Source: Deltaproteobacteria bacterium
Lineage (GTDB): Bacteria; Myxococcota_A; Polyangia; Polyangiales; JADJMO01
Length of the DNA: 33,516 nt
Assembly (NCBI GenBank): GCA_022843175.1
Contig: JALHOE010000086.1
Span: 1 to 33,516, forward strand
Reading direction: 5' to 3'
The translations under genes and the position numbers were made by a program. The notes under the pieces were generated by a model. That model ran no database searches and was not told the DNA's origin. It saw only the letters and a program-made list of their open reading frames with translations. Positions 8,514 through 23,070 of the stretch are shown piece after piece. How positions within the stretch are numbered: the first letter of the stretch is position 1; every line of letters starts with the position of its first letter.

Positions 8514-8560
8514 GCGTCAGGCGCTCGCTGACGCGCGCGCCTATTGGGGCGCGCGCCTAT
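8514..8560. repeat. Palindromic element, copy 1 (convergent junction)
   Basis: GCGTCAG and CTGACGC (8514-8520 and 8528-8534) form a perfect 7-bp stem around a 7-base loop, followed by GCGCGCGCCTAT, which recurs at 8549-8560. The 30 bases 8515-8544 are identical to 12888-12917. It lies between the convergent MshEN and cupin genes and overlaps the last 4 bases of the cupin. It is probably a REP-like element that may also stop or stabilise transcripts. Confidence 0.7.
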
Positions 8561-9172: not shown

Positions 9173-12100
9173 ATGCGCCGTCGTCTCCTCTTGCTCCCCT
9201 CGCTCGTTGGTCTGCTGGTGCTCGCCGCGTCTACGCAGGACGCGAGGGCCGGTTGGCCGCCCCCGTCGGGCGCCACGCCGGAGCAGCTGAAGGATCCGGC
9301 CAACTGGCCGAACGATCCCGACTACGGACCGCACAAGGCCGGCAAACCGGACGTCAACGGAACCGGCGGTTCGTGGCAGCAGTGGTCGTGGGTGCCCAAC
9401 CGCCCCGAGAGCAACAAGAGCTTTCGCAAGGCGGAGACGGCGGCGGGCATGAGCGCCGACGTCGCGTGGACGTACACCATCGGCGATCCGCGCGTGAAGA
9501 TCGCGGTGCTCGATAGCGGCATCAAGTGGGACGAGCGGGACATCGCGCACACCGCGGCGATCAACCAGAAGGAGCTCGTCAACGCCAAGCCGCTCGACAA
9601 GGACGGGAAGCCCTGCGGCGGCATGGCCGATCTGGCCGGGTTCGACTGCAACGCCGACGGCACGTTCGATCTCTACGACTACGAGGTCAGCAAGAAGGTG
9701 CAGACGCCCACCGGCGTCGTCGACTTCAAGGACGCCAACGCCAACGGCATCCTCGACCCGGGCGATCTCATCACCCTGTTCTCCGACGGCAAGGACGACG
9801 ACGGCAACGGCTTCACCGACGACATCTGCGGCTGGGACTTCCTCAAGGACGACAACGATCCCTACGACGACACCCGCTACGGCCACGGCACGGGCGAGGC
9901 GCGCGACTCCACCGCCGAGGCGAACAACGGCATGGGCACCGCCGGCTTCTGCCCGAGCTGCAGGCACATCCCGCTCCGTGTCGGCGACAGCTTCATCGTC
10001 GACGTGCAGGACTACGCGCAGGCGGTCACCTACGCGACCGACAACGGCGCGAAGGTCATCCAGGAGGCGCTCGGCTCGGTCAACCAGACCAACCTCTCAC
10101 GCGCCGCGATGGACAACGCCTACAAGAAGGGCACCGTCATCATCGCGTCTGCGGCCGACGAGAACAGCCGGCACCACAACATGCCGGCGGCGGCCAACCA
10201 CACGCTCATCGTCCACGCGATCCAGAAGGACCGCGAGGAGCCCTCGCAGGCCACCACGTTCCTCTCGTTCCACCCGTGCTCGAACTTCGGCGGGCAGATC
10301 CCGCTCTCGGCGTCCGGCACCGGCTGCGCGTCCGAGGCGACCGGCAACCTGAGCGGCATCGCCGGCCTCGTGTACGCGATGGGCCTCAAGAAGGGCCTCA
10401 CCCCGGAGCTGAGCGCAGGAGAGGTCGAGCAGGTCCTCAAGATGACCGCCGACCTCATCGACATCCCCGAGTCGTACGACACCAACCACCCGAGCTACGA
10501 CCCGAAGAAATACTACCCGAGCAAGCCCACCTTCTCGCAGCGCTTCGGCTACGGGCGCGTGAACGCCGGCGCCGCGGTGAAGATGGTCGCCGAGGGGAAG
10601 ATCCCCGCCGAGATCGACATCGTCTCGCCGCAGCTGTTCGAGGTTATCTACCCGCAGCGGGTGACCGGCGACGTGCCGATCAAGGGCACGATCAGGGCGC
10701 GCGCGGGCACCACCTTCGAGGGCAAGGTCGAGTGGGCGCCGGGCGTCGATCCCGACGAGAGCAAGTGGCAGACGATCACCACCATCCCCTCGCAGCCCGG
10801 CGGCGGCACGGGCTTCGGCGGCGACACGCCCCTCGCCTTCCTCAAGGTCAAGGATCTGAAGATCGACAACATCAAGGACAAGCTCACGACCGAGAAGGAG
10901 AACCAGTACACGATCACGGTTCGCATCCAGGTCAACGCCACCTACCCGGGCGGCGTGGGCGCGGTGAAGGGCGAGCAGCGGCGCACGCTCTACATCCACG
11001 ACGATCCGACGCTGCTCGCGGGCTTCCCGAAGTTCCTCGGCTCGTCGGGCGAGGCCTCGCCCCGCCTCGTCGATCTCGACGGTGACGGCAAGCGCGACAT
11101 CCTCTACCCCGCCGCCGACGGGCTCCTTCACGCCTACCGGTTCGACGGCCGCGAGATCGACGGCTGGCCGTTCAAGACGCGTCACATCGACGGCCTCCAG
11201 CCCGACAAGGTCGAGGCGTCGCCGTTCGTGCAGAACTACCTCGGCGGGAAGAACTCCTGGACCGACGGCTCGATGAACGTCGAGCTCGCGCGCGAGACGC
11301 TGATGTCCGCGCCCGCGATCGGCGACATCGACGGCGACGGCAAGGACGACATCGTCTTCGGCACGTGGTCGGGCACGGTCTACGCGATCCACACCGATCG
11401 CACGCCGGTCGCCGGGTACCCGAAGCGCCTCCCCGACATCCCCTCCTGCCCCCGCGGCGTCGCCCCGGCGCTCCCCGCCGGCACCACGTGCATGGACCTC
11501 ACCCACGGGCTCGCGCGCGGCGCGTTCGCCGGCATCGTGCTCGCCGACATGAACAACGACAAGAAGCTCGACGTGATCGTCGCTGCGTTCGACGCCAAGG
11601 TGTACGTCTGGGATGGCGCCGGCAAGGATCTCCCCGGCTTCCCGGTGCTCGTCGACTACCAGGGCGGACTCGACAAGGACAACCGCGTGTCGCGCATCGT
11701 CACGACGCCCGCGGTCGGCGACATGAACGGCGACGGCTTCCCCGAGATCGCCGTCGGCTCCAACGAGTACCTCGGCACCGGCGGCAACGTCGGCGCGTTC
11801 TTCCTCATCGACGGCCGGGGCATGAACGCGCCCGGCGGCAAGCCGTACGTCGACGGGTGGCCGGTCACCGTGTCGAGCTTCAAGCTGTTCCCGCTCGTCG
11901 GCGAGGGCATCGTCAGCGCCGGCATGATGGCCGACGTCGACGGCGACAAGATCCCCGAGGTGATCTTCCACGGCACTGGCGGCGCGCCCGTGGTGCTGCC
12001 GCTCCACCCGACCAAGCCGGCCGTCATCGGCGGCGCGTTCCCCAACGCCAAGGCCACGCTCGATCCGCTCTACGGCGCGAACTACGACTTCGACAACAAC

Positions 12101-12880
12101 CTCGGCGGAAACAACTTCATCGGCGTGTTCTCGCAGCCCTCGATCGGCGACCTCAACCAGGACGGCACGCCCGACGTCGTCGCGGTCGGTGCGTCGTTCT
12201 GGCTCGCGCTCGCGCTCTCGGCCTCCGAACGCCGCGACTACGAGCAGATGGTCGCCTTCTGGAACATGAAGGACGTCCGGCCGTGCTCGAACGATCAGCC
12301 GGGCAACTGCGCGTTCATGTTCCCCGGCTCGCCGACGATCATCGAGGACTACACGTTCTTCCACAACATGACGATCGGCGACGTGAGCGGCGACGGGTAC
12401 CCGGAGACCATCGTCGGCACGGGCGGCTACTACGTGCGCGCGGTCGACGCGTGCGGCCGCGAGGCGCCCGGGTTCCCCAAGTTCACGGGCCAGTGGATCA
12501 TTCCCTCCGTCGCGCTCGGCGATCTCGACGGCGACGGCAAGCTCGAGGCCGTCACCGGCACGCGCGACGGCTGGCTCTACGCCTGGAAGACCGAGGGCCG
12601 CGAGGACGGCGTCCTCGAGTGGCCGACGCATCACCACGACAACCGCAACACCGGCAACTACGCGACGCCGCTCGACTTCCCGAAGGCCACGCGCGCGGCC
12701 AAGCCGCTCGACCTCGCGGAGTGCAAGAAGCCCGACGTCAACGCGCAGCCGCCGCAGGAGCCCGAGGCCAGCGGCTTCGGCTGCGGCTGCCGCACGCCGA
12801 GCAAGCCGGCAACCACCGCCGGCTTCGCGCTCTCGGCTGTCGCGTTGGCCCTCGCGTTCGCACGCCGCCGCCGCCACTAA
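9173..12880 (+). CDS. Secreted subtilisin-family protease with FG-GAP repeats and MYXO-CTERM tail
   Basis: A 1235-aa exported protein. Residues 1-26 are a signal peptide (RRR, then LLLLPSLVGLLVLAAS). The S8 domain follows: Asp114 in AVLDSGI, His238 in YGHGTGEA, and Ser387 in CASEATGNLSG. These blocks are recognisable but diverge from the usual HGTHVAG and GTSMAAP. The usual oxyanion Asn is replaced by Asp329 (ASAADEN). About 120 residues between Asp and His hold Asp-rich EF-hand-like loops (DANANGILD, DDDGNGFTDD), so calcium binding is likely. From about 610 to 1150 there are eight FG-GAP/VCBS-like repeats with DxDGDGxxD loops, predicting a beta propeller. The end has GCGC, a hydrophobic helix and RRRR, the myxobacterial C-terminal sorting tail for surface display. 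Activity is likely but not certain given the altered sites. Confidence 0.9.
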   Translation: MRRRLLLLPSLVGLLVLAASTQDARAGWPPPSGATPEQLKDPANWPNDPDYGPHKAGKPDVNGTGGSWQQWSWVPNRPESNKSFRKAETAAGMSADVAWTYTIGDPRVKIAVLDSGIKWDERDIAHTAAINQKELVNAKPLDKDGKPCGGMADLAGFDCNADGTFDLYDYEVSKKVQTPTGVVDFKDANANGILDPGDLITLFSDGKDDDGNGFTDDICGWDFLKDDNDPYDDTRYGHGTGEARDSTAEANNGMGTAGFCPSCRHIPLRVGDSFIVDVQDYAQAVTYATDNGAKVIQEALGSVNQTNLSRAAMDNAYKKGTVIIASAADENSRHHNMPAAANHTLIVHAIQKDREEPSQATTFLSFHPCSNFGGQIPLSASGTGCASEATGNLSGIAGLVYAMGLKKGLTPELSAGEVEQVLKMTADLIDIPESYDTNHPSYDPKKYYPSKPTFSQRFGYGRVNAGAAVKMVAEGKIPAEIDIVSPQLFEVIYPQRVTGDVPIKGTIRARAGTTFEGKVEWAPGVDPDESKWQTITTIPSQPGGGTGFGGDTPLAFLKVKDLKIDNIKDKLTTEKENQYTITVRIQVNATYPGGVGAVKGEQRRTLYIHDDPTLLAGFPKFLGSSGEASPRLVDLDGDGKRDILYPAADGLLHAYRFDGREIDGWPFKTRHIDGLQPDKVEASPFVQNYLGGKNSWTDGSMNVELARETLMSAPAIGDIDGDGKDDIVFGTWSGTVYAIHTDRTPVAGYPKRLPDIPSCPRGVAPALPAGTTCMDLTHGLARGAFAGIVLADMNNDKKLDVIVAAFDAKVYVWDGAGKDLPGFPVLVDYQGGLDKDNRVSRIVTTPAVGDMNGDGFPEIAVGSNEYLGTGGNVGAFFLIDGRGMNAPGGKPYVDGWPVTVSSFKLFPLVGEGIVSAGMMADVDGDKIPEVIFHGTGGAPVVLPLHPTKPAVIGGAFPNAKATLDPLYGANYDFDNNLGGNNFIGVFSQPSIGDLNQDGTPDVVAVGASFWLALALSASERRDYEQMVAFWNMKDVRPCSNDQPGNCAFMFPGSPTIIEDYTFFHNMTIGDVSGDGYPETIVGTGGYYVRAVDACGREAPGFPKFTGQWIIPSVALGDLDGDGKLEAVTGTRDGWLYAWKTEGREDGVLEWPTHHHDNRNTGNYATPLDFPKATRAAKPLDLAECKKPDVNAQPPQEPEASGFGCGCRTPSKPATTAGFALSAVALALAFARRRRH

Positions 12881-12887
12881 ACGACGT

Positions 12888-12979
12888 CGTCAGGCGCTCG
12901 CTGACGCGCGCGCCTATCGACGCAGCCCCATCCCGACCGGCGCGCGCGTCACGACCGGCGCGCGCGTCAGCGAGCGCCT
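12888..12979. repeat. Palindromic element, copies 2 and 3, forming a 23-bp inverted repeat
   Basis: Bases 12888-12917 are identical to 8515-8544. A reversed copy at 12957-12979 gives a perfect 23-bp inverted repeat (arms 12892-12914 and 12957-12979) with a 42-base loop. Inside it the 18-mer cgaccggcgcgcgcgtca is tandemly duplicated (12934-12951, 12952-12969). It lies just after the protease stop, between the convergent protease and ompA-like genes. Confidence 0.75.
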
Positions 12980-20501: not shown

Positions 20502-20714
20502 ATGACCGACCCCCGCGTCCACCACCGATTCCTCGCCTACCGGGAGCGTCACGCATATTTCGGGCGCCAAGACCTCAGGCAGCCGCTCAGCCTTTCGGAG
20601 TACGCCGCGCTCGACGCGGAGCGGCTGCGGCTGATTTCGCTGCCCGCTTCGGCTCGGTCGGCGGCGGAGGAGACGCGGCTCGCGGAGGTTCGGCGACTGA
20701 TGCTGGAGGACTGA
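20502..20714 (+). CDS. Small hypothetical protein (70 aa) overlapping rlmE tail
   Basis: A 70-residue ORF from ATG 20502 (MTDPRVHHRFLAYRERHAYFG ... EETRLAEVRRLMLED). I do not recognise a family. The composition is protein-like: two amphipathic helices rich in Arg, Glu and Leu, with LSLSEYAALDAERLRLISLP resembling a helix pair, and nothing like the Arg/Ala noise of shadow frames. Its last 128 bp overlap the rlmE 3' end in opposite orientation, covering only a low-complexity rlmE tail, so both could be real. Divergent from metK (159 bp between starts). No strong ribosome-binding site is visible. Moderately supported. Confidence 0.5.
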   Translation: MTDPRVHHRFLAYRERHAYFGRQDLRQPLSLSEYAALDAERLRLISLPASARSAAEETRLAEVRRLMLED

Positions 20715-21339
20715 GCCCGGCCGGCTCGGTCCGCTTGCCGATACCGACCAGGAACACCTCGGTGCTCACCGAGCGTGTGCCCTCGGGACGGATCACCCGT
20801 TCCTCGTCGAACATCTCGCGCACCCGCTTGCGGAGCCCGATGAGCGCCTCGCTCATGAACAGCTTGGCGATCCACACGCCGCCACGGCTCAGCCATTGCT
20901 CGGCGACGTCGAGCGTCCGCTCGACGAGCTCGGCGCTGCGGGCCTGGTCGGCGAACGGCGTCCCGGAGGTCGAGGGCGCCATATCCGACATGACCACGTC
21001 GTACGGCGCGCCCTCGACGAGGAACGCCTCGACCTCGGGCCCGGGCGTGAGCGCGTCGCCCGCGATCGCGATCGCGTTGGGCGGGAGCGCGACCTCGAGT
21101 CCCTTGAGGTCGATGCCGCGGACGCGGCCGCCGGGGGCGACCTTCTTGGCCGCGTACATCAACCACGAGCCCGGCGCGCACCCGAGATCGAGCACGCGCT
21201 GCCCCTGCTTGAACACGCGAATGCGACGATCGATCTCCTCGAGCTTGTAGACCGAGCGCGCCGGATACCCCTCGGACCGAGCCTTCTGCGCGTACATATC
21301 GGCCCGCGCGTAGGGATTCTGCCGTTTGTCGCGACCCAT
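20587..21339 (-). CDS. rlmE: 23S rRNA 2'-O-ribose methyltransferase RlmE (FtsJ)
   Basis: Methylates the 2'-O of a conserved 23S rRNA uridine (U2552 in E. coli) using SAM, late in 50S assembly. The 250-aa protein has the FtsJ K-D-K-E tetrad: Lys32 in RSVYKLEE, Asp119 in SDMAPSTSG, Lys159 in WIAKLF, Glu194 in VSTEVFLV. The SAM loop is VLDLGCAPGSW (49-59). A tail of about 43 residues (Pro/Ala/Arg/Lys-rich) follows the normal end; it overlaps a convergent small ORF. ATG 21339 begins MGRDKRQNPYARADMY, the expected N-terminus. The open frame upstream to 21492 reads through an inverted-repeat element and is not coding. Confidence 0.94.
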   Translation of the reverse strand: MGRDKRQNPYARADMYAQKARSEGYPARSVYKLEEIDRRIRVFKQGQRVLDLGCAPGSWLMYAAKKVAPGGRVRGIDLKGLEVALPPNAIAIAGDALTPGPEVEAFLVEGAPYDVVMSDMAPSTSGTPFADQARSAELVERTLDVAEQWLSRGGVWIAKLFMSEALIGLRKRVREMFDEERVIRPEGTRSVSTEVFLVGIGKRTEPAGLSPPASVAEPPRAASPPPPTEPKRAAKSAAAAPRRARRTPKG

Positions 21340-21378: not shown

Positions 21379-21508
21379 GGAGCCGCGACCGTGAGGGAGC
21401 GGGTTGTCGAGGACGACGGGGCCGCGCGCGTGAGCGCGCGGTTGCCGCTGAGTATCGAGATCGAGCCGGTCTGTCCGAGACAACCCGCTCACTCACGCTC
21501 GCGGCCCC
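21379..21508. repeat. 130-bp inverted-repeat element between rlmE and the histidine kinase
   Basis: 30-base arms (21379-21408 and 21479-21508) are complementary at 27 of 30 positions. Inside, CCGCGCGC/GCGCGCGG (21422-21429, 21434-21441) forms a second hairpin with loop GTGA. The left arm includes ccgcgaccgtgagggagc, which on the minus strand reads as LPHGRGS-type peptide, a phrase I recall from spurious ORFs of other large environmental genomes. It is probably a dispersed palindromic element. It lies 8 bases past the kinase stop and 39 bases before rlmE. Confidence 0.75.
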
Positions 21509-21516
21509 ATCGAAGC

Positions 21517-23069
21517 CTACGACTCGCTGCGCTCGCTCAGGGGGGGCAGCGTCGAGGTGCGCGAGGGCGGGTGCGAGCTGCGGATGGCCTCGACCTCGGT
21601 GGGGTTGCTCGGGAGGAAGACGCTCACCACGGTGCCCTCCCCCGACCGGCTCTTGATCTGGAGGACTCCGCCGTGCGCGGTGACGATGCGATCGCAGATC
21701 GCGAGGCCGAGGCCCGTGCCGCCGGGGCGCGTCGTGAAGAACGGCGTGCCGGCGCGGGAGCGGACCTGGGTGTCCATGCCCTCGCCGGTGTCGGAGACCT
21801 CGACGATCACGCCGGAGACGCCGTCCTCGGTGGCGGCCCTCGCGCGCACGGTGAGCGTGCCGCCGTTGGACATCGCCTGACAGGCGTTCTGCACGAGGTT
21901 ATCGAAGACCTGCCGCAACATCGTCGCGTCGCCGTAGACGGCTGGCGTGTCGTCGCTCGACCAGCCGATCTCCATCGTGAGCTGCACCTGCGCGTGCGCG
22001 CGCGAGAGCTCGGTGGCGCGCCCGAGCAGCGCGTCGATGTCGAGCTTGTTGCGCTCGACGTGGAGCGGCTTGGCGTAGCGCAGCAGATCGCCAACGAGAC
22101 GATTGAGACGCGCCGTCTCCTCGTCGAGGATCGAGAGCAACGTCTCGCGGTCCTCCGGCGACGTGCCCCCACGGCGCAAGCCGGCGACCGCGTTGGTGAT
22201 GATCGCGAGAGGGTTTCGGACCTCGTGGGAGACAACGGCGGCGAGCTCGCCGACGAGCGCAAGCTGCTCCTTGCGGACGAGCTCCTCCTGCGCGGCGCGC
22301 AGCTCCTCGTAGGCCTTGCGGAGATGGCGCGCTCGGCGCCGAAGCTCGGCGCCCTTGAGGGTGAGCTCGTCGGAGACGCGCTCGTGACGCGCGAGGAGCG
22401 TGTACGAGAGCCCGAACGCGACCGCGGCGAACCCGTGCACCGATAGGTAGAGGCCGCGGTGCGCGCCGAGCGCGATGAGCACGTCGTTGGCGACGGCCGC
22501 GAGCATGACGAACCCGCCGAGGCACGCGAGGAGCGCCTCGCGCTTGCCGGCGAGGTACGCGCGCACCAGGAGGTAGACCATCGCCGCGATGAGCCCGACG
22601 AGCAGCATGAACGCGATCGGCTGCGCGGGCGTCGCCTTGAAGTGGAAGTGCGTGTAGCGGAGCGGACCGAAGCCGAGCACGCGCGGATCGAGCTGCCCGG
22701 GGCGGTGCAGCAGATTGAGCACGGTGGCGATCGAGGCCGCGCCCGCGCTCACGTAGCCGAACGTGACGAGGCGCGTGCGAAACGGCGACGCCACCTCTGC
22801 GTAGAGCGCGGAGGTGTGGAGCGCGGTCGCGGCGGCGAGCGGTGCGATGGCGAAGGCCCGCGCTCCCCAGGTGGCCGACGCCATCGGATCGGTCGTGTGG
22901 TAGCGGACGCCGTGGCAGAACGCGAAGACGCCGACGAACACGCACGTCAGCGCGAAGGTGGCGTAGTCCGCGCCGCCGTCGGGGCGGCGCGCGGCGAGAA
23001 TTCCGAAATAGATCGCCAGCAGAACGTAGACGACGCACCAGCTGAACGCCGCGCCCGCGAGCAGATCCA

Positions 23070-23070
<1 letters not shown>
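21517..23070 (-). CDS. Membrane sensor histidine kinase with seven-helix N-terminus
   Basis: A 517-aa sensor. Residues 1-235 are about seven membrane helices with short loops and no recognisable periplasmic domain, then a coiled coil (AELRRRARHLRKAYEELRAAQEELV). The HisKA H-box SHEVRNPLAI has the phospho-acceptor at about His282. The ATPase domain shows the N box DNLVQNACQAM, G1 SDTGEGM, F box PFFTTRPGGTG and G2 TGLGLAI. A Ser/Pro-rich tail of about 30 residues ends it. Its ATG shares one base with the stop of the response regulator gene (TGATG), so the pair is coupled and is the clear cognate pair. The frame is open upstream, but that stretch overlaps the regulator. Signal unknown; membrane or lipid-phase sensing is a guess. 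Confidence 0.93.

Follow-up and report, generated by a model that had tools for sequence, protein, structure and literature searches.

A composite REP element at a kinase-rlmE junction and a class-3 TnpA_Y1 gene bordered by related units in a probable myxobacterium

The kinase-rlmE junction and its element

The window, i.e., the whole stretch of DNA analyzed here, comprises 33,516 nt of contig JALHOE010000086.1 from a Deltaproteobacteria bacterium. A sensor histidine kinase gene (21517..23070, minus strand; HisKA and HATPase_c domains, with the start taken from our own gene caller) is followed on the same strand by rlmE (20587..21339, minus strand), which encodes a 23S rRNA methyltransferase of the FtsJ family (FtsJ domain, E 2.5e-41) and has orthologues in four family members. 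The 177-nt gap between the two genes holds a 130-bp repeat element, which spans 21379-21508 exactly as placed by the initial annotation but lies upstream of rlmE rather than behind it, beginning 8 nt from the kinase stop codon and ending 39 nt before the rlmE start codon. In two relatives, G140 and G141, the reading frame of the kinase gene terminates within the rlmE start (ATGA); a third, G143, has by eye the same ATGAGC sequence as these two, and the gap in G142 is 5 nt. As rlmE is only 59-71% identical to the orthologues of these four relatives, the ends of the insertion cannot be fixed. We infer from this comparison that a REP insertion opened a tight kinase-rlmE junction, and likewise infer its timing and any effect on rlmE. 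Elsewhere in the window, positions 9173-12880 (the protein is also given as 9173-12877) encode a large subtilisin-like protein with FG-GAP-like repeats recognized by eye, in which a MYXO-CTERM C-terminal sorting domain (24 bits; cut-off 20) suggests that the host belongs to Myxococcota.

The arms of the element (21379-21414 and 21473-21508) are 36 nt each, 86% complementary and separated by a 58-nt spacer, and an inner 8-bp hairpin, CCGCGCGC-GTGA-GCGCGCGG, occupies 21422-21441. The paired arms and internal hairpin first described are therefore both real, with arms somewhat longer and less complementary than the 30 nt and 90% given at that time, and the fold is strong: the predicted RNA reaches -90.6 kcal/mol versus -60.17 (sd 4.25) for shuffled sequences (z -7.16), and the predicted DNA fold of the whole element gives z -6.76, with none of 200 shuffles equally stable in either case. 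Folded singly as DNA, the units described below give weak scores for REPa (z -1.70 and -1.09) and a stronger one for REPb (z -3.10). No curated Rfam family matched any part of the window at the gathering threshold.

Arms and inner hairpin proved to be versions of one hairpin unit of about 30 nt, so that the element is a mosaic of three REP units, REPa(+), REPb(+) and REPa(-), rather than a single 130-bp unit. All three share one design, comprising a foot, a CC-stem, a GTGA loop, a GG-stem and a GTTG- or TTGC-type tail. REPa unit 1 (21379..21408, plus strand) has the foot GGAG, a type A stem, CCGCGACC-GTGA-GGGAGCGG (21383-21402), and the tail GTTGTC. It is followed by the REPb unit (21415..21446, plus strand), in which the inner hairpin stands between GACGGGG and TTGCC, and by the inverted REPa unit 3 (21479..21508, minus strand), with the foot GGGG, a type B stem, CCGCGAGC-GTGA-GTGAGCGG (21485-21504), and again the tail GTTGTC. 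The peptide LPHGRGS, noticed earlier in one frame of the arm, is encoded on the minus strand of 21379-21399.

Distribution, arrangement and stem variation of the units

A 26-nt REPa core pattern with at most two mismatches matched the genome 238 times and its reversed control not once, in agreement with the initial view of a widespread dispersed repeat and at odds with a single-copy sequence; REPb gave 88 matches and a third family, REPc, 632, and a BLAST search of the element against its own genome (9.75 Mb, 470 contigs) returned 84 pieces. A sample of 139 further genomes of the phylum contained no match to the same REPa 26-mer at up to two mismatches. An 18-nt REPa pattern allowing one mismatch matched 223 times in the own genome, 0 times in the sole same-genus genome (G140, 91% complete) and in three same-family genomes, and 13 times in 7 of 33 other genomes, where the reversed control gave 7 matches. 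Among eight relatives searched, REPb had no match and REPc one, in a genome that also had one control match, and G140 carries no REPa, REPb or REPc units. Counts of short hairpins, with stems of 6-8 bp and a 4-nt loop of any sequence, in 400 kb of the own genome and 333 kb of G140 gave no useful signal. The G140 contigs (L132-L151) are rich in simple tandem 15-mers, which recur as many as 38 times over 333 kb.

REPc is a related family that outnumbers REPa and has an ATAG-like 5' side and the stem GCGCGCGC-GTNA-GCGAGCGC. By pattern matching, three REPc units lie in gaps between convergent genes of the window, one at 8520..8541 (minus strand) and two inverted with respect to each other within one gap, at 12893..12914 (minus strand) and 12957..12978 (plus strand). 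No transposase was linked to the units of this commonest family.

Among 114 REPa units, from loci partly picked for their likeness to the window element, neighbors within 80 bp had their feet outward in 43 cases, inward in 5 and in tandem in 5, and in 41 of the 43 feet-outward dimers a type A unit is joined to a type B unit, the arrangement of the window element. Unit clusters were surveyed over 433.5 kb, i.e., 20 stretches chosen by place together with the window, and 19 of 20 were intergenic, with 13 in convergent, 6 in tandem and none in divergent gaps, versus 37, 92 and 54 such gaps in the background (convergent excess, Fisher p 2.8e-5). The gene caller used had been seeded with rlmE, lexA, fumC and the kinase gene, so that its correct calls of rlmE and the kinase gene are no test of it; family matches, weak in two cases, were obtained for all ten of the window genes scanned, whether or not these include the seeds. 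Another caller, which placed 16 of 20 clusters between genes (4 convergent, 6 tandem, 5 divergent), was rejected for drawing plus-strand genes over the element and metK.

These properties might suggest that the element is mainly an RNA structure, such as a terminator, an mRNA 3'-end stabilizer or an attenuator acting at the kinase-rlmE junction, and has been retained for that purpose: its RNA fold is very stable, the clusters prefer convergent gaps, i.e., gene 3' ends, and REPs act in RNA in other species according to part of one account (PMC3733652). However, the element is missing from the same junction in four relatives, its foot, loop and G-A mispairs are retained at transposase genes of other phyla (see below), and an RNA role leaves the copies unexplained; we therefore regard such a role as unlikely to be the main one, with a secondary role possible.

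The stems vary in a compensated manner. At stem position 7, 89 distinct own REPa copies, collected by their 3' half only, have C-G in 44 cases, G-C in 42, G-G in 2 and G-T in 1, and 29 REPb copies include 10 with GGC/GCC, 9 with CGC/GCG and 10 that are mixed, some of them mismatched. Two founder subfamilies could explain much of this covariation in REPa and REPb. The 5-nt feet of REPa copies read CGGAG, GGGAG, TGGAG and the like.

A class-3 TnpA_Y1 gene and its counterparts in other phyla

A class-3 TnpA_Y1 (single-tyrosine HUH) gene, the only one found in the genome, lies at G000:C15:18315-18794 between genes read by eye as lexA and fumC, homologues having been found for fumC. When A2, an alignment built from seven class-3 sequences, was used to search the own genome and 37 relatives, the sole strong match was the own protein (E 6.3e-45), and five relatives gave weak matches (best 1.2e-6; the value for G140 was 2.4e-4). 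Upstream of fumC, G140 differs from the own genome, which prevented a comparison of the lexA-fumC gap. The protein keeps EHVH, WA and YVLYEQ, close to but not identical with the published motifs NHVH, W[TA] and YV[VI][AENY]EQ (PMC6006769, in part), and is divergent, with 32-39% identity to nine others. Its AlphaFold model (pLDDT 84.8, pTM 0.79) has as top structure match 4er8, the complex of a RAYT and a REP hairpin (E 6.1e-5, TM 0.48-0.50, 11% identity), level with the IS608 transposase 2a6m, and a sequence search of the PDB with A2 gave weak transposase matches only (E 0.05 and 0.078). Five tandem REPa-type units stand at the 3' end of the gene, and a sixth, inverted unit overlaps with the gene start and makes the first codons REP sequence, an arrangement that could permit self-regulation. 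The overlapping unit, L344 1985-2009, encodes MEPRASASGL; the gene is on the minus strand of L344.

The protein falls outside the matches to PF01797 at E 0.01 (E 0.024 when scored singly), and five Y1 matches to this family were found in the genome, four of them RAYT-like. These four HUH genes (L032 228-1010, L033 1273-1881, L034 1264-1926 and L035 1315-1926) encode HNHVHL-type motifs and are 51-71% identical to L034. As RAYTs are the usual mobilizers of REPs in the parts of one account used here (PMC3733652), REPa might have been spread by one of these class-2 type proteins, with the class-3 gene merely sitting among the units. However, no REPa unit occurs in the flanks read around the RAYT-like genes, which reach 1.5 kb at most and less near the ends of contigs, six REPa-type units stand at the ends of the class-3 gene, and elsewhere such hairpins accompany class-3 genes; spread by a RAYT-like protein is accordingly improbable.

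The exact 24-mer GAGCCGCGACCGTNAGGGAGCGGG occurs in at least 102 stretches of genome contigs, several per genome in places and nearly all of them metagenome-assembled genomes (MAGs). By title, the matches listed comprise 71 from Planctomycetota, 25 from Acidobacteriota, 3 from Deltaproteobacteria (one MAG), 1 each from Verrucomicrobiia and Zixibacteria and 1 without a named group, so that the link to planctomycetes named at the outset holds at the DNA level. Class-3 matches at 1e-8 were obtained in 34 of 45 genomes with the 24-mer and not in 11, including the Deltaproteobacteria record, a co-occurrence that is partly circular because A2 derives from six of these genomes. It is very improbable that this likeness reflects chance or convergence of GC-rich palindromes, even though every host seen is GC-rich, the class-3 proteins have diverged and single records, nearly all from MAGs, may be misbinned, since class-3 genes that are homologous and are bordered by the same core occur in Planctomycetota, in Acidobacteriota and here, and the 139 other genomes of the phylum lack even a near match.

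PF01797 was searched in 27 genomes carrying the 24-mer, and 90 neighborhoods were read, comprising 30 returned by the search and 60 hand-picked among weaker matches. A unit with at most two mismatches was found in 15 of the 90, and 12 of these 15 genes are class-3 matches, the exceptions being L262, L286 and L316. With a filter defined after examples had been seen, hairpins with an AG foot, an 8-bp stem and a GNNA loop were located within 350 bp of the gene at 18 of 31 class-3 loci (the own locus and 30 that overlap with these neighborhoods), on both sides in 15 and as an inverted pair across the gene in 10, and were absent within that distance at the other 13. Over the 31 loci, 47 such hairpins lie in 35.8 kb near the genes versus 3 in 66.5 kb far from them. 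With the own locus excluded, hairpins accompany 17 of 30 class-3 loci versus 2 of 22 IS200-like controls from the same genomes (Fisher p 0.0004), and neither of these two control genes has the REPa stem. At L268 471 and 1045, a non-class-3, IS200-like gene is flanked by an inverted hairpin of another stem type, CCCACGGC-GTNA-GCCGTGGG, with a TAG foot. A tree of the 31 class-3 proteins, in which L373 is represented by its wrong strand and stop-bearing rows carry X, had little resolution, with stars on 6 of its 28 inner branches, and no claim is based on it.

In a set of 19 hairpins from class-3 loci (one from the window, one from the REPtron of this genome and two from one locus), every stem starts with CC/GG, five of the eight stem pairs are changed on both sides, and the covariation score is 0.288 versus 0.054 (sd 0.023) for shuffles and at most 0.084 for slid controls, although the selecting scan, which let through standard and G-A positions alone, biases the set toward pairing. 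Standard pairing is missing at stem position 5 in 14 and at position 6 in 15 of the 19 rows, these being G-A mispairs by that scan. Compensatory changes, proposed at the outset as a check, are present both among the own copies and across class-3 loci. In other genomes, the class-3 genes L365, L371, L372, L378 and L381 are accompanied by compensated variant stems, CCCCGACC, CCGACTGC, CCCCACGC, CCGGGAGC and CCTCCCGC, a natural series for the recognition code.

Interpretation and comparison with known systems

The repeat is multi-copy, covarying and patchily distributed, class-3 genes are bordered by REPa-type units both here and in other phyla, and the junction is closed in relatives. We consider it quite probable that the element represents a composite REP (BIME/REPIN-like) insertion and that REPa is non-autonomous, having most likely been copied or moved in trans by the class-3 TnpA_Y1 protein, whose catalysis and transposition in trans are deduced from this association. 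In structural terms, the element would be an inverted REPa heterodimer with its feet outward and a REPb unit in the spacer, and each REPa unit could fold as DNA into a hairpin that has a GAG-type foot on its 5' side, tandem G-A mispairs in its 8-bp stem and a GTNA loop. The class-3 protein would bind this hairpin, recognize its foot, and cleave and rejoin single strands, and its gene, bordered by REPa-type units, would constitute a REPtron, the source of the enzyme acting in trans; one such insertion at the window locus would have opened the kinase-rlmE junction. The initial suggestion of a mobile palindrome is accordingly strengthened by the 24-mer in other phyla, the compensatory changes and the linked HUH transposase gene. 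The element is best assigned to the REP/BIME sequences of a class-3 REPtron, a known but little-studied kind, with mobilization as its presumed mode of spread.

A broader scenario, which we put forward tentatively and hold to be somewhat less than even in probability, is that class-3 REPtrons make up a REP system that moves horizontally and is common to Planctomycetota, Acidobacteriota, probably Verrucomicrobiota and this probable myxobacterium. Recognition by the enzyme may fix the core (tandem G-A mispairs, GTNA loop and GAG foot) while the enzymes drift to 32-49% identity, and the system may have entered this genome recently and expanded to several hundred units, or perhaps some 950 if REPb and REPc are counted, the same-genus genome having neither units nor a class-3 gene. 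As repeat and enzyme are jointly present here and jointly absent in the nearest genomes examined, and the core recurs in distant phyla, it becomes possible to test whether REP systems spread from one lineage to another. For tnpA_Y1 genes, such horizontal spread has been proposed earlier (PMC6006769), and some REP families occur in distant species (PMC3733652), as stated in the parts of these papers used here.

The element is ordinary in kind (REP/BIME), but it is tied to a little-studied transposase class and its hairpin core is common to several phyla. Class-3 TnpA_Y1 proteins are rare and occur beside unusual hairpins, and their discoverers called for experiments, according to the part of their report drawn on here (PMC6006769). 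Judged from sequence, this genome would offer a defined candidate pair of enzyme and substrate, in which the stem varies naturally and the G-A mispairs are conserved. In addition, the repeat would explain LPxGRGS-like peptides in mispredicted ORFs and would exemplify how an inserted REP can open a tight junction between genes. We found no report of the REPa repeat in myxobacteria in the open-licence literature searched, which is not to claim its absence from print.

The units combine the features by which REP/BIME sequences are recognized, being short high-copy palindromes that are extragenic near 3' ends, arranged in inverted pairs or mosaics and compensated in the stem, with those of a class-3 REPtron, namely, a Y1 HUH protein with near-published motifs and hairpins beside its gene. 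REPINs, in which an inverted REP doublet is reportedly the unit, resemble the element in this respect, and are said to have been described in Pseudomonas, with REP sequences other than those found here. The GTAG and CGTC superfamilies, as presented in part of PMC3733652, are likewise palindromes of 20-40 nt that are paired, intergenic and near gene 3' ends, with subfamilies showing compensating stem changes; unlike them, REPa has no GTAG or CGTC end, and its stem starts with CC/GG, where CGTC families have AT. A GTAG (GYRG-like) end next to the stem was not found among REPa feet, nor was a CGTC type with an A-T stem start; REPb carries a CGTC on the outer strand, although its stem does not begin with A-T. 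Similarly, the E. coli REP/BIME and TnpA_REP system (PMC8266576, in part) shares inverted mosaics of hairpin variants, conserved stem mismatches, which TnpA_REP needs in the REP stem, and an HUH Y1 enzyme, and differs in having a GTAG foot where GAG-type feet occur here, in its enzyme class and in its mispairs, which are G-A here. The ends of IS200/IS605 elements (IS608, ISDra2) are alike in hairpin-plus-guide logic (PMC6006769, in part) and, as the model predicts, in enzyme fold, whereas the unit here has no internal transposase gene and hundreds of gene-less units are dispersed in the genome.

The closest likeness is to TnpA_Y1 class 3 as described in the parts of PMC6006769 compared, with motifs of the HVH, W[TA] and YV..EQ type, hairpins beside the gene and a high copy number (about 600 copies in Solibacter usitatus); the hosts given there, Planctomycetes, Acidobacteria and Proteobacteria, match the groups found here. 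The published CnGA foot, the register of which was taken without the figure, is present in 5 of 6 units at the class-3 gene but only in at least 32 of 89 dispersed REPa copies, and within the window in unit 1 (CGGA) and not in unit 3 (TGGG). The heterodimers, the three subfamilies and the constant cross-phylum core observed here extend beyond what those parts of the class-3 description contain.
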